Positions 42,329 through 47,515 of a DNA stretch of 64,000 nucleotides are shown here, one piece after another. Where the stretch lies: positions 360,439-424,438 of the forward strand of contig JAFDZT010000002.1 in the NCBI GenBank assembly GCA_018266735.1. The letters run 5' to 3'. Each line of letters starts with the position of its first letter. Position 1 is the stretch's first letter. The notes under the pieces are model-generated. The model saw nothing but the letters and a program-made list of their open reading frames with translations. It was not told the origin of the DNA and searched no databases. This stretch comes from Bacteroidota bacterium. Lineage in GTDB: Bacteria > Bacteroidota > Ignavibacteria > Kapaibacteriales > Kapaibacteriaceae. The position numbers and the translations under genes are program-made.

Positions 42329-43247
42329 ACTTTCGGTGCAAGAACCAGTCGGCAGTGAGGTGCACTCCCTCTTTGAGGCCCATGGTCGGCGTCCAGCCGG
42401 ACGTGGCGCGAAGCTTGTCGAAGGAACAAACATTTCTGCGCAGATCGCCCGGCTTCCCCTCGCCGTGACGTGTAAGAGCCGTCGCACCGTAGGATCGACG
42501 CAAATGATCGACGAGTTCGTTGAGCGATGTTTCGATGCCCGTGCAGCAGTTGAAGGCACCACGCAGACGTTGCTCGGTGACAAAGAGATTGGCCCGCGCA
42601 ACGTCGCCAACGTAAATGTAGTCGCGTGTCTGTTCCCCATCGCCGTTGATGACGGCCGTTGCTCCATCGATCCACTTTTGCAGGAAGATGGCGATCACGC
42701 CGGCTTCGCCGAAGGGGTTCTGACGAGGACCGTAGACGTTGGTGTAGCGGAGGATGGTGGACGTCATGCCGTGCACCTCCTGGTAATAGTCCAGGTAGAG
42801 CTCCACCGATCGCTTTGAAACACCGTAGGGAGAAATGGGGCGCGTTGGATGCGACTCGTCGGCCGGGAAGACCGATTGATCGCCATACACTGCTCCACCA
42901 CTGGATGCGAAGACCACATGCCCGACACCATTTCGATGTGCCGCCTCGAGCAGTCGCAAGGAACCGATGATGTTCGTCGTCGCATCCTTGACGGGATCTT
43001 GCACGCTCACCCGCAATTCCATGTGCGCAGCATGATGGTTCAACACATCGAAGCGCTCCTGCGCGAACACATCGGCAACGGCCGGATCGGTGATGTTGAG
43101 CTCGATCAGTCGCGCGTTCCCCGGAACGTTCGTGCGCTTGCCGGTGCTGAGATCGTCGATGATCACCACGTCGTGCCCGGCATCGAGATAGGCCTGGGCC
43201 ACGTGCGATCCAATGAAGCCGGCACCACCGGTCACGCAGACCTTCAT
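42327..43247 (-). CDS. NAD-dependent sugar epimerase (UDP-glucose 4-epimerase-like)
   Basis: A 306-residue extended short-chain dehydrogenase. The Rossmann motif VTGGAGFIGSHV is at the start, followed by VIIDDLSTGKR, NIIGSLRLLEAA, the catalytic VFASSGGAVYGD serine and SPYGVSKRSVELYLDYY (Tyr-x-x-x-Lys), and YGPRQNPFGEAGVIAIF. The family converts UDP-glucose to UDP-galactose or acts on related nucleotide sugars such as UDP-GlcNAc; the substrate cannot be fixed by eye. The ATG overlaps the purD stop (ATGA). It might feed the polysaccharide genes at the left end of the window. Confidence 0.88.
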   Translation of the reverse strand: MKVCVTGGAGFIGSHVAQAYLDAGHDVVIIDDLSTGKRTNVPGNARLIELNITDPAVADVFAQERFDVLNHHAAHMELRVSVQDPVKDATTNIIGSLRLLEAAHRNGVGHVVFASSGGAVYGDQSVFPADESHPTRPISPYGVSKRSVELYLDYYQEVHGMTSTILRYTNVYGPRQNPFGEAGVIAIFLQKWIDGATAVINGDGEQTRDYIYVGDVARANLFVTEQRLRGAFNCCTGIETSLNELVDHLRRSYGATALTRHGEGKPGDLRRNVCSFDKLRATSGWTPTMGLKEGVHLTADWFLHRK

Positions 43248-44545
43248 ACGGTTTGCTCCACTCTGCGAATGCCCTTCAGGGCGATATCGGTGCGAAAGAT
43301 CTTGGTGCGATACTGAATGCATGCCACGGCTTCGTAGGCACGTGCACGCGCCTCGCCAAGCGTCGACGCAATGGCCGTGACGCCGAGCACCCTGCCGCCA
43401 TTGGTGACGAACTCGCCATCCTTGATGGCCGTGCCCGCATGGTAGACGATGATGTTGCCCAATGCCTCAGCTTGTTCGATGCCGTGAATGGGCACGCCCT
43501 TTTCATAGCCGTCGGGATAGCCTTCAGAGGCAAGGACGACAGTACAAGCAACGTTCTTGGAGATGGATCGGAGGGTGGCAGGGTCGAGGGCACCACGCGC
43601 GGCTGATGCGAAGAGCGCCGCCACATCTCCATCACAAACGCTGAGCACCGGTTGTGTTTCGGGATCGCCGAAGCGACAATTGAATTCGACGACGTTGATG
43701 GATCCGTCGGCATCGATCATGAGACCTGCATACAGACATCCGACAAAGGGATGTCCCTCTGCACGCATGGCATCGATCATCGGTGTGATCACATCGCGCT
43801 GTGCTCGCGCAAGCACGTCGTCCGTGACGATCGGTGCCGGTGCATACGCTCCCATACCGCCGGTGTTCTTGCCGGTGTCGTTGTCGCCAATACGTTTGTG
43901 ATCCTGTGCGCTTGCGAGAACGATGTAGTTCGTTCCATCACTCACAGCAAAGAGCGATGCTTCTTCGCCGGAGAGGAAGGCCTCGACGACGATCTCTGCA
44001 CCACTTGCACCGAAGGAGCCATCGAACATGTCTTCGACGGCACTGATGGCCTCTTCACGTTCCGTGGCCACCACCACACCTTTTCCGGCGGCAAGTCCAT
44101 CTGCTTTGATGACGACGGGCAAGGCATGCGACCGAACATGGTCGATGGCCTCGTCGCGTTGTGCTCCGGTGAATCGGCGATACGCAGCGGTGGGCACACC
44201 GTACCGCACCATCAGCTCCTTGGCAAAGGCCTTGGAGGATTCGATGCGTGCGGCGGCTTGGGACGGACCGAAGACGGCGAGCCCATGGGAGCGCAACACG
44301 TCCGAGAGTCCTGCGGCCAATGGCTGTTCCGGACCGATCACCACAAGTGTGATGGCATGCTCTGAACACCATGCGGCCACAGCATCGCCGTTGTCGATCT
44401 CGAGTGCAACGAGCGTTCCATGTTGTGCCATGCCGGGATTGCCCGGAGCAATGAAGAGCGCCGTGCACGACGCACTGCGTTGCAACGCACGGGCCATGGC
44501 ATGTTCACGACCGCCGGAACCGATCAGCAGAATACGTTCTTGCAT
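43244..44545 (-). CDS. purD: phosphoribosylamine-glycine ligase
   Basis: A 433-residue ATP-grasp enzyme, second step of purine synthesis (phosphoribosylamine + glycine + ATP to GAR). Landmarks: ILLIGSGGREHAMARAL, VVIGPEQPLAAGLSD, FGPSQAAARIESSKAFAKELM, LPVVIKADGLAAGKGVVVA, VVEAFLSGEEASLFAVSDG, GGMGAYAPAPIVTD and NVVEFNCRFGDPETQPVL. Full length. It begins 4 bases after the DUF3127 gene and overlaps the epimerase, as part of an alaS-led operon. Neighbouring pur genes are absent. Confidence 0.96.
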   Translation of the reverse strand: MQERILLIGSGGREHAMARALQRSASCTALFIAPGNPGMAQHGTLVALEIDNGDAVAAWCSEHAITLVVIGPEQPLAAGLSDVLRSHGLAVFGPSQAAARIESSKAFAKELMVRYGVPTAAYRRFTGAQRDEAIDHVRSHALPVVIKADGLAAGKGVVVATEREEAISAVEDMFDGSFGASGAEIVVEAFLSGEEASLFAVSDGTNYIVLASAQDHKRIGDNDTGKNTGGMGAYAPAPIVTDDVLARAQRDVITPMIDAMRAEGHPFVGCLYAGLMIDADGSINVVEFNCRFGDPETQPVLSVCDGDVAALFASAARGALDPATLRSISKNVACTVVLASEGYPDGYEKGVPIHGIEQAEALGNIIVYHAGTAIKDGEFVTNGGRVLGVTAIASTLGEARARAYEAVACIQYRTKIFRTDIALKGIRRVEQTV

Positions 44546-44549
44546 GCGA

Positions 44550-44927
44550 TCAGAATGGAACGTCGTCGAAGTCGGCTGTTGCCGGTCCGCTTGCGGCCGG
44601 TGGGATCTGCGAATAGTCCTGGGCCGGACCCGTGCCCGCTTGTGCAGGTTCGATGCGCCATGCCTCGAGATTCGTGAAGTAGACCGTTTCGCCGGTCTTG
44701 CTCTGGAACGGACGTCCGCGAAGATTGAAGAGCACCTTCACTTGCTGACCTACCTTAAAGGTGTCGAGCAACTGACAGCGGTCTTGCGTCACTTGGAACT
44801 TGATATGCTGCGGATAATTTCCGTCCTGCATCTCCAGCACGAAGTCGCGCTTGCGGAACGTGTCCTTCACTTGTTGCGTGTCCATTACCACGTGCAGTGT
44901 ACCCACTGCTTCGTACGAATTCGCCAT
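44550..44927 (-). CDS. DUF3127 protein with SSB-like C-terminal tip
   Basis: A 125-residue small protein of the DUF3127 family known mainly from Bacteroidota. Residues 5-95 form the domain: GTLHVVMDTQQVKDTFRKRDFVLEM, HIKFQVTQDRCQLLDTF, VGQQVKVLFNLRGRPFQSKTGE and YFTNLEAWRIE. The strand pattern suggests an OB fold. A low-complexity Ala/Gly/Pro/Gln linker then leads to the acidic end ADFDDVPF, which copies the protein-docking tip of single-stranded-DNA-binding protein (DDDIPF). This layout strongly suggests a nucleic-acid-binding protein that recruits partners. It lies between alaS and purD in one operon. No function has been shown as far as I know. Confidence 0.85.
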   Translation of the reverse strand: MANSYEAVGTLHVVMDTQQVKDTFRKRDFVLEMQDGNYPQHIKFQVTQDRCQLLDTFKVGQQVKVLFNLRGRPFQSKTGETVYFTNLEAWRIEPAQAGTGPAQDYSQIPPAASGPATADFDDVPF

Positions 44928-44938
44928 GTCCGTGTCCC

Positions 44939-47479
44939 TTAGGATGATTGTGTGTTCGTGATGATCTGCGGGATGCGCTGCAACACGTCGGCAAGACGTG
45001 CCACGTCGCGTCCACCCGCCGTTGCAAGGTGAGGTTTCCCTCCCCCGCCTCCGCCAAGTTCCTTTGCGATCGCACCAACGATGGTCCCTGCCTTGAAACG
45101 AGGGATGAGATCATCGGTGACCACGCAGACGAGCTGTACCTTTCCGTCGAGTTCTGCGGCGAGCACGCCAATGCCCTGGTGCTTGAGGGCCAAACGCAAC
45201 TCGTCGCCGAGCGACTTCAATTGTTCGCCATCTTCTGCCTTCACAACGCCAACGGCCACCTTCGTGCCATCAACGTTCTGTGCGGCGCTAACGAGTGCCG
45301 GAATGGCTGCGGCCAATTCCTGCGTGCGAAGACCTGCCAGTTCCTTTTCAAGCTGACGTACTCGTTCCTGCACGGCAAGCGTTTCGTTGGTGGCCGCATC
45401 CCGTTGTTGCGCAAGGTCGCGCAGATACTTCGGGATCGACCTGCCGGCAATGGCATCGATCCGACGAACACCGGCAGCAACGCTGGATTCGGAGATGAGC
45501 TTCAACAAACCGATCTCGCTGGTGTTGCGCACATGCGTGCCACCACAGAACTCCACCGAGAACTTCTCGTCGATGGTCACCACGCGGACCTTGTCGCCAT
45601 ACTTATCGCCAAAGAACATCTTCGCACCCGGGATCGATCGAGCCTTCTCGATCGAGAGTTCCTCGGTCTGCACATCGATGCTCTGGAAGATCTTCTCATT
45701 CACCATGCGTTCGATCTCTTCCAATTCGTCCTGCCGTACCTTCTCGAAATGCGAGAAGTCGAATCGCAAGTGGTCCGGAGCCACGAGCGATCCCGCTTGC
45801 TGCACATGCGTTCCGAGCACGCGTCGCAATGCTTCGTGCAAAAGGTGTGTGGCAGAGTGTTCGCGTGCAATGTCCTTGCGTCGTTCTCTGTCGATGCGGA
45901 CCACGGCGGACTCGCCCGGTGCCGCTTCGACAGCGCGTTCACACACATGCACAATGGCATCGCCATTCTTGCGCACGTCTTCCACCACATACTCCGTTCC
46001 GCCAACGATCAACACGCCTGTGTCGGCAACCTGTCCGCCCATCTCCACATAGAACGGCGTCACATCGGTCACCACCTGGTTGTTGTGCACGTACAGGATC
46101 TTCGCCTCGTTCTCAAAGTGCCCGTACCCGTCGAAACGTGACACGGCATCGATGGAATCCATCTGCACTTCGGCCACATGGGCCTTGCGTGCAGAACGCG
46201 AGCGAGCACGCTGCTCATCGAGGAGTCGTTCGTATTCGTTCAGATCGATCTGAAGTCCGCGCTCGCGTGCGAGCAACTGCGTCAGGTCGATCGGAAATCC
46301 GAAGGTGTCGTAGAGTTCAAAGGCATCGGCGCCTTGGACCATGCCGCCCTCTGCCTTTGCCGCTGCATCTTCGAAGCGGATGAGGCCACGGTCGAGGGTG
46401 GCAAGGAAGGATTCTTCTTCGGCCTTGATGATGCGCTCGATCAGCGCTTGCTGTTGAACGATCTCCGGGAAGACGTCGCCCATCGTATCGCAGAGCACTT
46501 GCACGTGCTTGTAGAGCACGGGCTCGGTGAGGCCGAGGTTGCGTGCATAACGTGCGGCGCGACGGAGGATGCGACGGAGGACATAGCCGCGTCCTTCGTT
46601 GCCGGGGATGGCACCATCGGCAATGGCGAACGTGAGCGTGCGGATGTGATCGGCGATCACACGCATCGCAACGCCGTCCGGATCGTCGAGTTCTTGTCGG
46701 TAGGGTTTGCCGCAAAGACCAACGGTGACGTTGATGATGGGCTGGAAGACATCAGTGTCGTAGTTCGACGACTTCTCTTGCATCACAGCGGTGACGCGTT
46801 CGAAGCCCATGCCGGTGTCGACGTGTTTGGACGCAAGCTCTTCGAGGCCTCCGTCGACGCGACGGTTGTACTGAATGAAGACGTTGTTCCAGATCTCGAT
46901 CACCTCTTGCACGCCGGCATTAACGAGCGGACCTCCGCTCAGGTCTGGCGTGCGATCGAAGTGGATCTCGGAACATGGACCGCAGGGACCGGTATCGCCC
47001 ATTTCCCAGAAGTTGTCCTTATCACCAAAGCGATGAATGTGCGACTCGGGCAGGTACTTCTTCCAGATCTCATAGGCCTCGTCGTCGGTCTGATACACCG
47101 TTGCATGCAGGCGCTCTTTGGGAAGCTTCCACACATCGGTGAGGAGTTCCCACGACCATGCAATGGCCTCTTCCTTGTAGTAATCTCCGAAGCTCCAGTT
47201 GCCGAGCATTTCGAAGAAGGTGTGGTGATACGTATCGTATCCCACCTCTTCAAGGTCGTTGTGTTTCCCGCTCACGCGAATGCACTTCTGCGTATCGGCG
47301 GCACGCGTGTAGTCGCGTTTGCCCACTCCAAGGAACACGTCCTTGAATTGGTTCATGCCGGCATTCGTGAACAGGAGGGTGGGATCGCCGTGCGGGATCA
47401 CCGGTGCAGAAGGCACGATGCGGTGACCGCGGGCGGCAAAGAAGTCAAGGAAGGACTGGCGGATCTGGCGTGAGGTCAT
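44939..47479 (-). CDS. alaS: alanine-tRNA ligase
   Basis: An 846-residue class II synthetase. Aminoacylation domain: RQSFLDFFAARGHRIVPSAP, FTNAGMNQFKDVFLG, VGYDTYHHTFFEMLGNWSFGDY and EMGDTGPCGPCSEIHFDR. The editing domain carries the zinc-type HSATHLLHEALRRVLG and VEFCGGTHVRNTSEIG motifs, and a C-terminal DHHA1 region ends with ELGGGGGGKPHLATAGG. The ATG at 47477-47479 is preceded by only 6 bases after the -7 box, so the message should be leaderless; the longer frame is rejected. It leads the operon alaS-DUF3127-purD-epimerase. Confidence 0.96.
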   Translation of the reverse strand: MTSRQIRQSFLDFFAARGHRIVPSAPVIPHGDPTLLFTNAGMNQFKDVFLGVGKRDYTRAADTQKCIRVSGKHNDLEEVGYDTYHHTFFEMLGNWSFGDYYKEEAIAWSWELLTDVWKLPKERLHATVYQTDDEAYEIWKKYLPESHIHRFGDKDNFWEMGDTGPCGPCSEIHFDRTPDLSGGPLVNAGVQEVIEIWNNVFIQYNRRVDGGLEELASKHVDTGMGFERVTAVMQEKSSNYDTDVFQPIINVTVGLCGKPYRQELDDPDGVAMRVIADHIRTLTFAIADGAIPGNEGRGYVLRRILRRAARYARNLGLTEPVLYKHVQVLCDTMGDVFPEIVQQQALIERIIKAEEESFLATLDRGLIRFEDAAAKAEGGMVQGADAFELYDTFGFPIDLTQLLARERGLQIDLNEYERLLDEQRARSRSARKAHVAEVQMDSIDAVSRFDGYGHFENEAKILYVHNNQVVTDVTPFYVEMGGQVADTGVLIVGGTEYVVEDVRKNGDAIVHVCERAVEAAPGESAVVRIDRERRKDIAREHSATHLLHEALRRVLGTHVQQAGSLVAPDHLRFDFSHFEKVRQDELEEIERMVNEKIFQSIDVQTEELSIEKARSIPGAKMFFGDKYGDKVRVVTIDEKFSVEFCGGTHVRNTSEIGLLKLISESSVAAGVRRIDAIAGRSIPKYLRDLAQQRDAATNETLAVQERVRQLEKELAGLRTQELAAAIPALVSAAQNVDGTKVAVGVVKAEDGEQLKSLGDELRLALKHQGIGVLAAELDGKVQLVCVVTDDLIPRFKAGTIVGAIAKELGGGGGGKPHLATAGGRDVARLADVLQRIPQIITNTQSS

Positions 47480-47485
47480 AACCCG

Positions 47486-47515
47486 CAAGTTACGGCGTGG
47501 AGCCCGTTCCGCCAA
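47486..47515 (-). promoter_or_regulatory. promoter of alaS (leaderless)
   Basis: TTG (47513-47515), 20 bases, TAACTTG (47486-47492), then 6 bases to the alaS ATG. It is a good match to the Bacteroidota promoter with one base missing from the -7 box. Confidence 0.5.

Follow-up and report, generated by a model that had tools for sequence, protein, structure and literature searches.

The protein encoded by a small chromosomal gene of a Bacteroidota bacterium, a member of the Pfam family DUF3127 (PF11325), is probably a divergent member of the single-stranded DNA-binding protein (SSB) superfamily that acts as an accessory SSB beside the canonical one. SSB acts as a hub on single-stranded DNA, where it brings enzymes of replication and repair together. 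In many Bacteroidota, DUF3127 is found beside a normal SSB, and in their phages it is found where an SSB gene is expected. The family itself is known from Pfam, and its phage members already bear the name SSB in RefSeq phage records and in PHROGs, where PHROG 4932 is entitled 'single strand DNA binding protein'. Furthermore, the SSB of a Pantoea phage has been stated in the literature to hold a DUF3127 domain. No experiment supporting the PHROG 4932 name was found, nor any experimental study of DUF3127 in the open-access literature searched. What appears to be new is the argument, drawn from the predicted fold, the conservation of the tip and a survey across the phylum, that the cellular proteins are divergent second SSBs with a functional-looking tip.

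The gene lies in the window, by which we mean the whole analysed stretch of 64,000 nucleotides (contig JAFDZT010000002.1, positions 360,439 to 424,438). The open reading frame has an ATG start, and the last seven residues of its product are DFDDVPF (Table 1). The protein matches PF11325 with 92.1 bits over residues 7-93, passing the gathering cut-off of 27, and PHROG 4932 with an E-value of 2.3e-28 over residues 6-125 (profile positions 2-117 of 117), a full-length match within the same family that includes the tip. Unlike the PHROG members, the copy in the window is encoded on the chromosome, in a genome with a canonical SSB. This genome holds one such SSB (PF00436; positions 1489-1899 of locus L002), a protein of 137 aa with the C-terminus SDEIPF. 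A search of NCBIfam with the window protein returned weak spurious matches only.

Table 1. Features of the DUF3127 locus and tip-bearing proteins of DUF3127-bearing phages
Feature	Sequence	Coordinates	Strand	Details
DUF3127 (PF11325) gene, probable divergent SSB-family protein	Window	44550..44927	-	125 aa; PF11325 92 bits; phrog_4932 match
Predicted OB-fold domain, residues 4-94	Window	44646..44918	-	AlphaFold2 model; Foldseek and VIA-align matches
Pro/Ala/Ser/Gln-rich disordered linker (predicted), residues 95-118	Window	44574..44645	-	pLDDT about 50; mean 1.1 bits per column
SSB-Ct-like acidic tip DFDDVPF, residues 119-125	Window	44553..44573	-	Family conservation 89/94; 3.5 bits per column, last five residues
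alaS, co-directional, upstream	Window	44939..47515	-	TIGR00344 907 bits; gap 11 bp
purD, co-directional, downstream	Window	43244..44545	-	TIGR00877 487 bits; gap 4 bp
Tip-bearing primase/primase-helicase protein	L152	1903-4122	-	
Tip-bearing primase/primase-helicase protein	L158	12096-14612	+	
Tip-bearing primase/primase-helicase protein	L172	12071-14587	+	Tip assigned as presumed homologue of the L158 protein
Tip-bearing primase/primase-helicase protein	L170	6128-7594	+	
Tip-bearing primase/primase-helicase protein	L177	12374-13399	+	
Tip-bearing primase/primase-helicase protein	L181	7435-9264	+	

The initial annotation had recognized in the protein the architecture of SSB, with an OB-like domain, a disordered linker and an acidic end, and had proposed a comparison of the predicted structure with SSB. 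Both the architecture and the likeness are supported by an AlphaFold2 model calculated from an alignment (A2) of 38 cellular and viral relatives. The model has a mean pLDDT of 79.9, with values of about 90 across most of residues 11-90 and of about 50 past residue 96, where the tail is predicted to be disordered. Predicted strands 4-19, 25-35 and 38-47, a helix (50-54) and strands 62-75 and 81-94 define a five-stranded OB fold, in which three strands, a helix and two strands follow each other in the order of SSB. In a Foldseek search of the PDB, the top 50 matches listed are all SSB or the SSB-derived PriB, with a best E-value of 1.3e-6. Similarly, SSB and PriB occupy the top rows of the VIA-align comparison, where Z-scores reach 13.3 over 94 residues at 2.0 Å (yeast Rim1, 13.3; Salinibacter SSB, 12.9; Bacillus subtilis SsbA with DNA, 12.7; PriB, 12.6). 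Among viral structure models, DUF3127 proteins rank first, mostly followed by phage SSBs. Since many SSBs were among the training data of AlphaFold, the fold match cannot count as independent of them.

Profile comparisons connect the family to SSB as well. The DUF3127 profile matches the Deinococcus SSB (1se8) among PDB sequences at an E-value of 2.6e-4, and its weaker matches are mostly SSBs in the same β4-β5 register. Alignment of the domain alone to 31 Bacteroidota SSBs with hhalign gave a probability of 63% and a score of 30.5 over the third to fifth strand, whereas none of 150 column-shuffled controls scored above 18.9 and the reversed alignment reached 13.2; the full-length value of 95.8% is raised partly by the shared tail. 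The PF00436 model does not match the window protein at E ≤ 1, and the best value among the 38 relatives is only about 0.1, in 2 of them. Because this model is not matched, the window protein is not filed as a canonical SSB. Taken together, the structure prediction and the profile comparison point to a divergent relative within the SSB superfamily, with a true but distant homology for which the profile support is moderate. The term 'mimic' in the initial annotation, which implies convergence, is thus disfavored.

With canonical SSB (PF00436/TIGR00621) the family shares the SSB topology of the predicted OB fold, the disordered linker, the acidic -PF tip and a β4-β5 region alignable by profile. 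In contrast, the DUF3127 domain is shorter, has 10-20% identity to solved SSBs, misses the PF00436 model, and conserves other residues in its first three strands (QQV..F.KREFV); in this analysis, the family was encountered in part of a single phylum and in the phages of that phylum. The aromatic residues of E. coli SSB that stack on single-stranded DNA are Trp40, Trp54, Phe60 and Trp88. Position 74 of DUF3127, which aligns to Trp88, is aromatic (Phe, Trp or Tyr) in 90% of the members; counterparts of the other three are not evident in the DUF3127 alignment, where their positions are not reliably alignable. Lys26, Arg72 and Trp90 are nearly invariant, and the net charge of the domain is about neutral. 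Judging from homology, the aromatic aligned to Trp88 and the conserved basic residues, DUF3127 most likely binds single-stranded DNA.

The acidic tip, whose conservation in the family was half of the refutation test in the initial annotation, proved to be strongly conserved. Of 94 members sharing less than 80% identity in the domain, 89 carry a tip of the acidic-hydrophobic-Pro-aromatic type, and 85 end in a strict [LIVMT]PF. The five members without the standard tip are one phage protein, three proteins from one small clade and one with a PPF end. At the same loci, such ends occur in only 8 of the 2208 open reading frames that are neither DUF3127 nor SSB, so that chance does not account for the tip. 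On average, each column of the last five residues of the tip carries 3.5 bits of information, compared with 2.4 bits for the domain and 1.1 for the linker, which has little alignable conservation. The difference between tip and linker suggests that the former is under selection while the latter drifts, as in SSB. It is through the tip that E. coli SSB binds its partner proteins (PMC7145534).

Some members deviate at this end. In three loci from the order of the window (L262, L268 and L273; genomes G332, G390 and G347), DUF3127 stops after the OB domain, with neither linker nor tip; these proteins cluster together in the tree, and their genomes retain one normal SSB tip. In two Cytophagales (L014 and L021), DUF3127 ends in DDLPFF, with an extra Phe, while DDLPF is the C-terminus of the tailed SSB in these genomes. 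The protein of Hymenobacter amundsenii (L062) ends in a shifted frame where its relatives have the tip DDDNDLPF, probably owing to a frameshift in the gene or in the assembly. No pattern of co-variation between DUF3127 tips and SSB tips was observed, and the extra Phe of L014 and L021 is absent from their SSBs.

PF11325 is present in 170 of 296 Bacteroidota genomes sampled phylum-wide, usually as a single copy, and in 71 of 119 genomes from the order of the window. PF00436 is present in 293 of the same 296 genomes, and DUF3127 is nearly always accompanied by canonical SSB in the sampled genomes. DUF3127 was detected in a single one of 14 control genomes, that of Bacteroides ihuae. Side-by-side counts gave no clear sign that extra PF00436 copies are inversely related to DUF3127: families with and without DUF3127 alike have one to several copies of PF00436. 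In the tree of 94 rows, a fully supported branch separates two deep groups of 22 and 72 rows. All sampled phage proteins fall within the larger group, and phage and host rows are intermixed in this tree, which is built on few columns. A few genomes carry two DUF3127 genes (L272 in G228; L222 and L223 in G289). The second copy of G228 (L272) is far from the usual copy of its family, and its partner in the tree is a phage sequence; it is perhaps a prophage gene.

We found 111 phage records matching DUF3127, with mostly flavobacterial hosts. In all five annotated phages, the gene is located near RecT or ERF, NinG, DnaA/DnaC-like replication proteins, a primase-helicase or a dUTPase. A survey of 144 neighboring proteins from 20 IMG/VR loci yielded DNA methylases, helicases, exonucleases, ERF annealing proteins, ParB-like proteins and primases as the commonest named families. 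PF00436 is found in none of 22 DUF3127-bearing phage records, many of which are fragments. This absence is weak when taken alone, since most phages have no recognizable canonical SSB (our SSB query matched only 2499 of 50697 phage records) and fragments are common; for the same reasons, the position of DUF3127 in the module outweighs it. In addition, several primase or primase-helicase proteins of these phages carry an SSB-like acidic -PF tip of their own and account for the majority of the rare non-SSB proteins that end in this way. These tips may offer a route into the SSB-tip pockets of the host.

A different role for the tip is conceivable but improbable, namely that of a decoy or regulator, in which the OB domain is past binding single-stranded DNA and the protein mainly competes for the partners of SSB. 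The tip is indeed the most conserved part of DUF3127, and the same genomes hold a canonical SSB with a similar one. However, the clade of L262, L268 and L273 keeps the domain after the loss of linker and tip, which suggests an independent function for the domain; Lys26, Arg72, Trp90 and the aromatic at position 74 are strongly conserved within it, and phages retain DUF3127 in replication and recombination modules.

It is also unlikely that DUF3127 is a primosome cofactor like PriB, an SSB-derived OB protein that would bind single-stranded DNA and help PriA to reload the helicase, the tip adding a contact with PriA. In both, an OB domain derived from SSB spans about 90-100 aa, PriB ranks with the best structural matches to the model, and the architecture of the tipless clade resembles that of PriB. 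Nevertheless, SSBs match equally well or better, and the phage copies adjoin annealing proteins and exonucleases besides replication genes. PriB lacks both a C-terminal tail and the acidic tip, whereas the window protein and nearly all of its relatives carry linker and tip; to our knowledge, PriB has not been described in Bacteroidota.

The initial annotation had also placed the gene in one operon with alaS and purD. The three genes are indeed tightly spaced and co-directional, but their arrangement carries little weight as functional evidence. When neighbors were clustered for 69 loci from 27 lineages, alaS (upstream; f1, f2 and f3) and purD (mostly downstream; f1, f3 and f5) were the only genuine recurring neighbors in the order of the window, and no neighbor was conserved across the phylum. 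The order alaS-DUF3127-purD is confined to the family of the window and, in part, to adjacent families of its order. As this neighborhood is lineage-local, we rejected the operon as a clue to function. The close packing with alaS and purD, together with the general ability of OB folds to bind RNA, might suggest an RNA-binding OB protein with a part in translation or nucleotide metabolism. This reading is very unlikely given that no neighbor is kept across the phylum, that phage copies lie within DNA-metabolism modules and that the tip is of the SSB type.

An accessory SSB related to the bacterial ones, the reading that we prefer, has parallels in other systems. The lactococcal phage Orf14bIL67 SSB family complements an E. 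coli ssb-1 mutant and has been reported as connected to archaeal SSBs (PMC3208561). Like DUF3127, it is a phage SSB family clearly apart from bacterial SSB; DUF3127, in contrast, matches bacterial SSB best and is also chromosomal in many hosts. The SSB paralogs of Gram-positive bacteria are likewise additional SSBs beside a main one, but DUF3127 is far more divergent than these: SaSsbC, for example, has 33-38% identity to other SSBs (PMC5945547).

In the mechanism that we propose, the OB domain would bind single-stranded DNA, probably as an oligomer like that of SSB, and the disordered linker would present the acidic D-D-V-P-F tip. Proteins of replication, recombination and repair could then receive the tip in their SSB-tip pockets and would thereby be brought to the strand. 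In Bacteroidota phages, DUF3127 appears to act as the SSB that the phage itself encodes, with RecT/ERF annealing proteins, exonucleases, DnaA/DnaC-like proteins and primase-helicases encoded nearby. More tentatively, many Bacteroidota might possess two parallel SSB-tip hubs, the canonical SSB and a highly divergent DUF3127 SSB shared with phages, the latter kept as a regular chromosomal gene for a specialized job, such as recombination or restart, and using the same partner pockets. Should Bacteroidota commonly possess a second, unrecognized SSB that docks through the same tip, and should their phages use it as their SSB, the recruitment of partners in these organisms would need to be reconsidered, and a Pfam family of 'unknown function' would gain a directly testable function.
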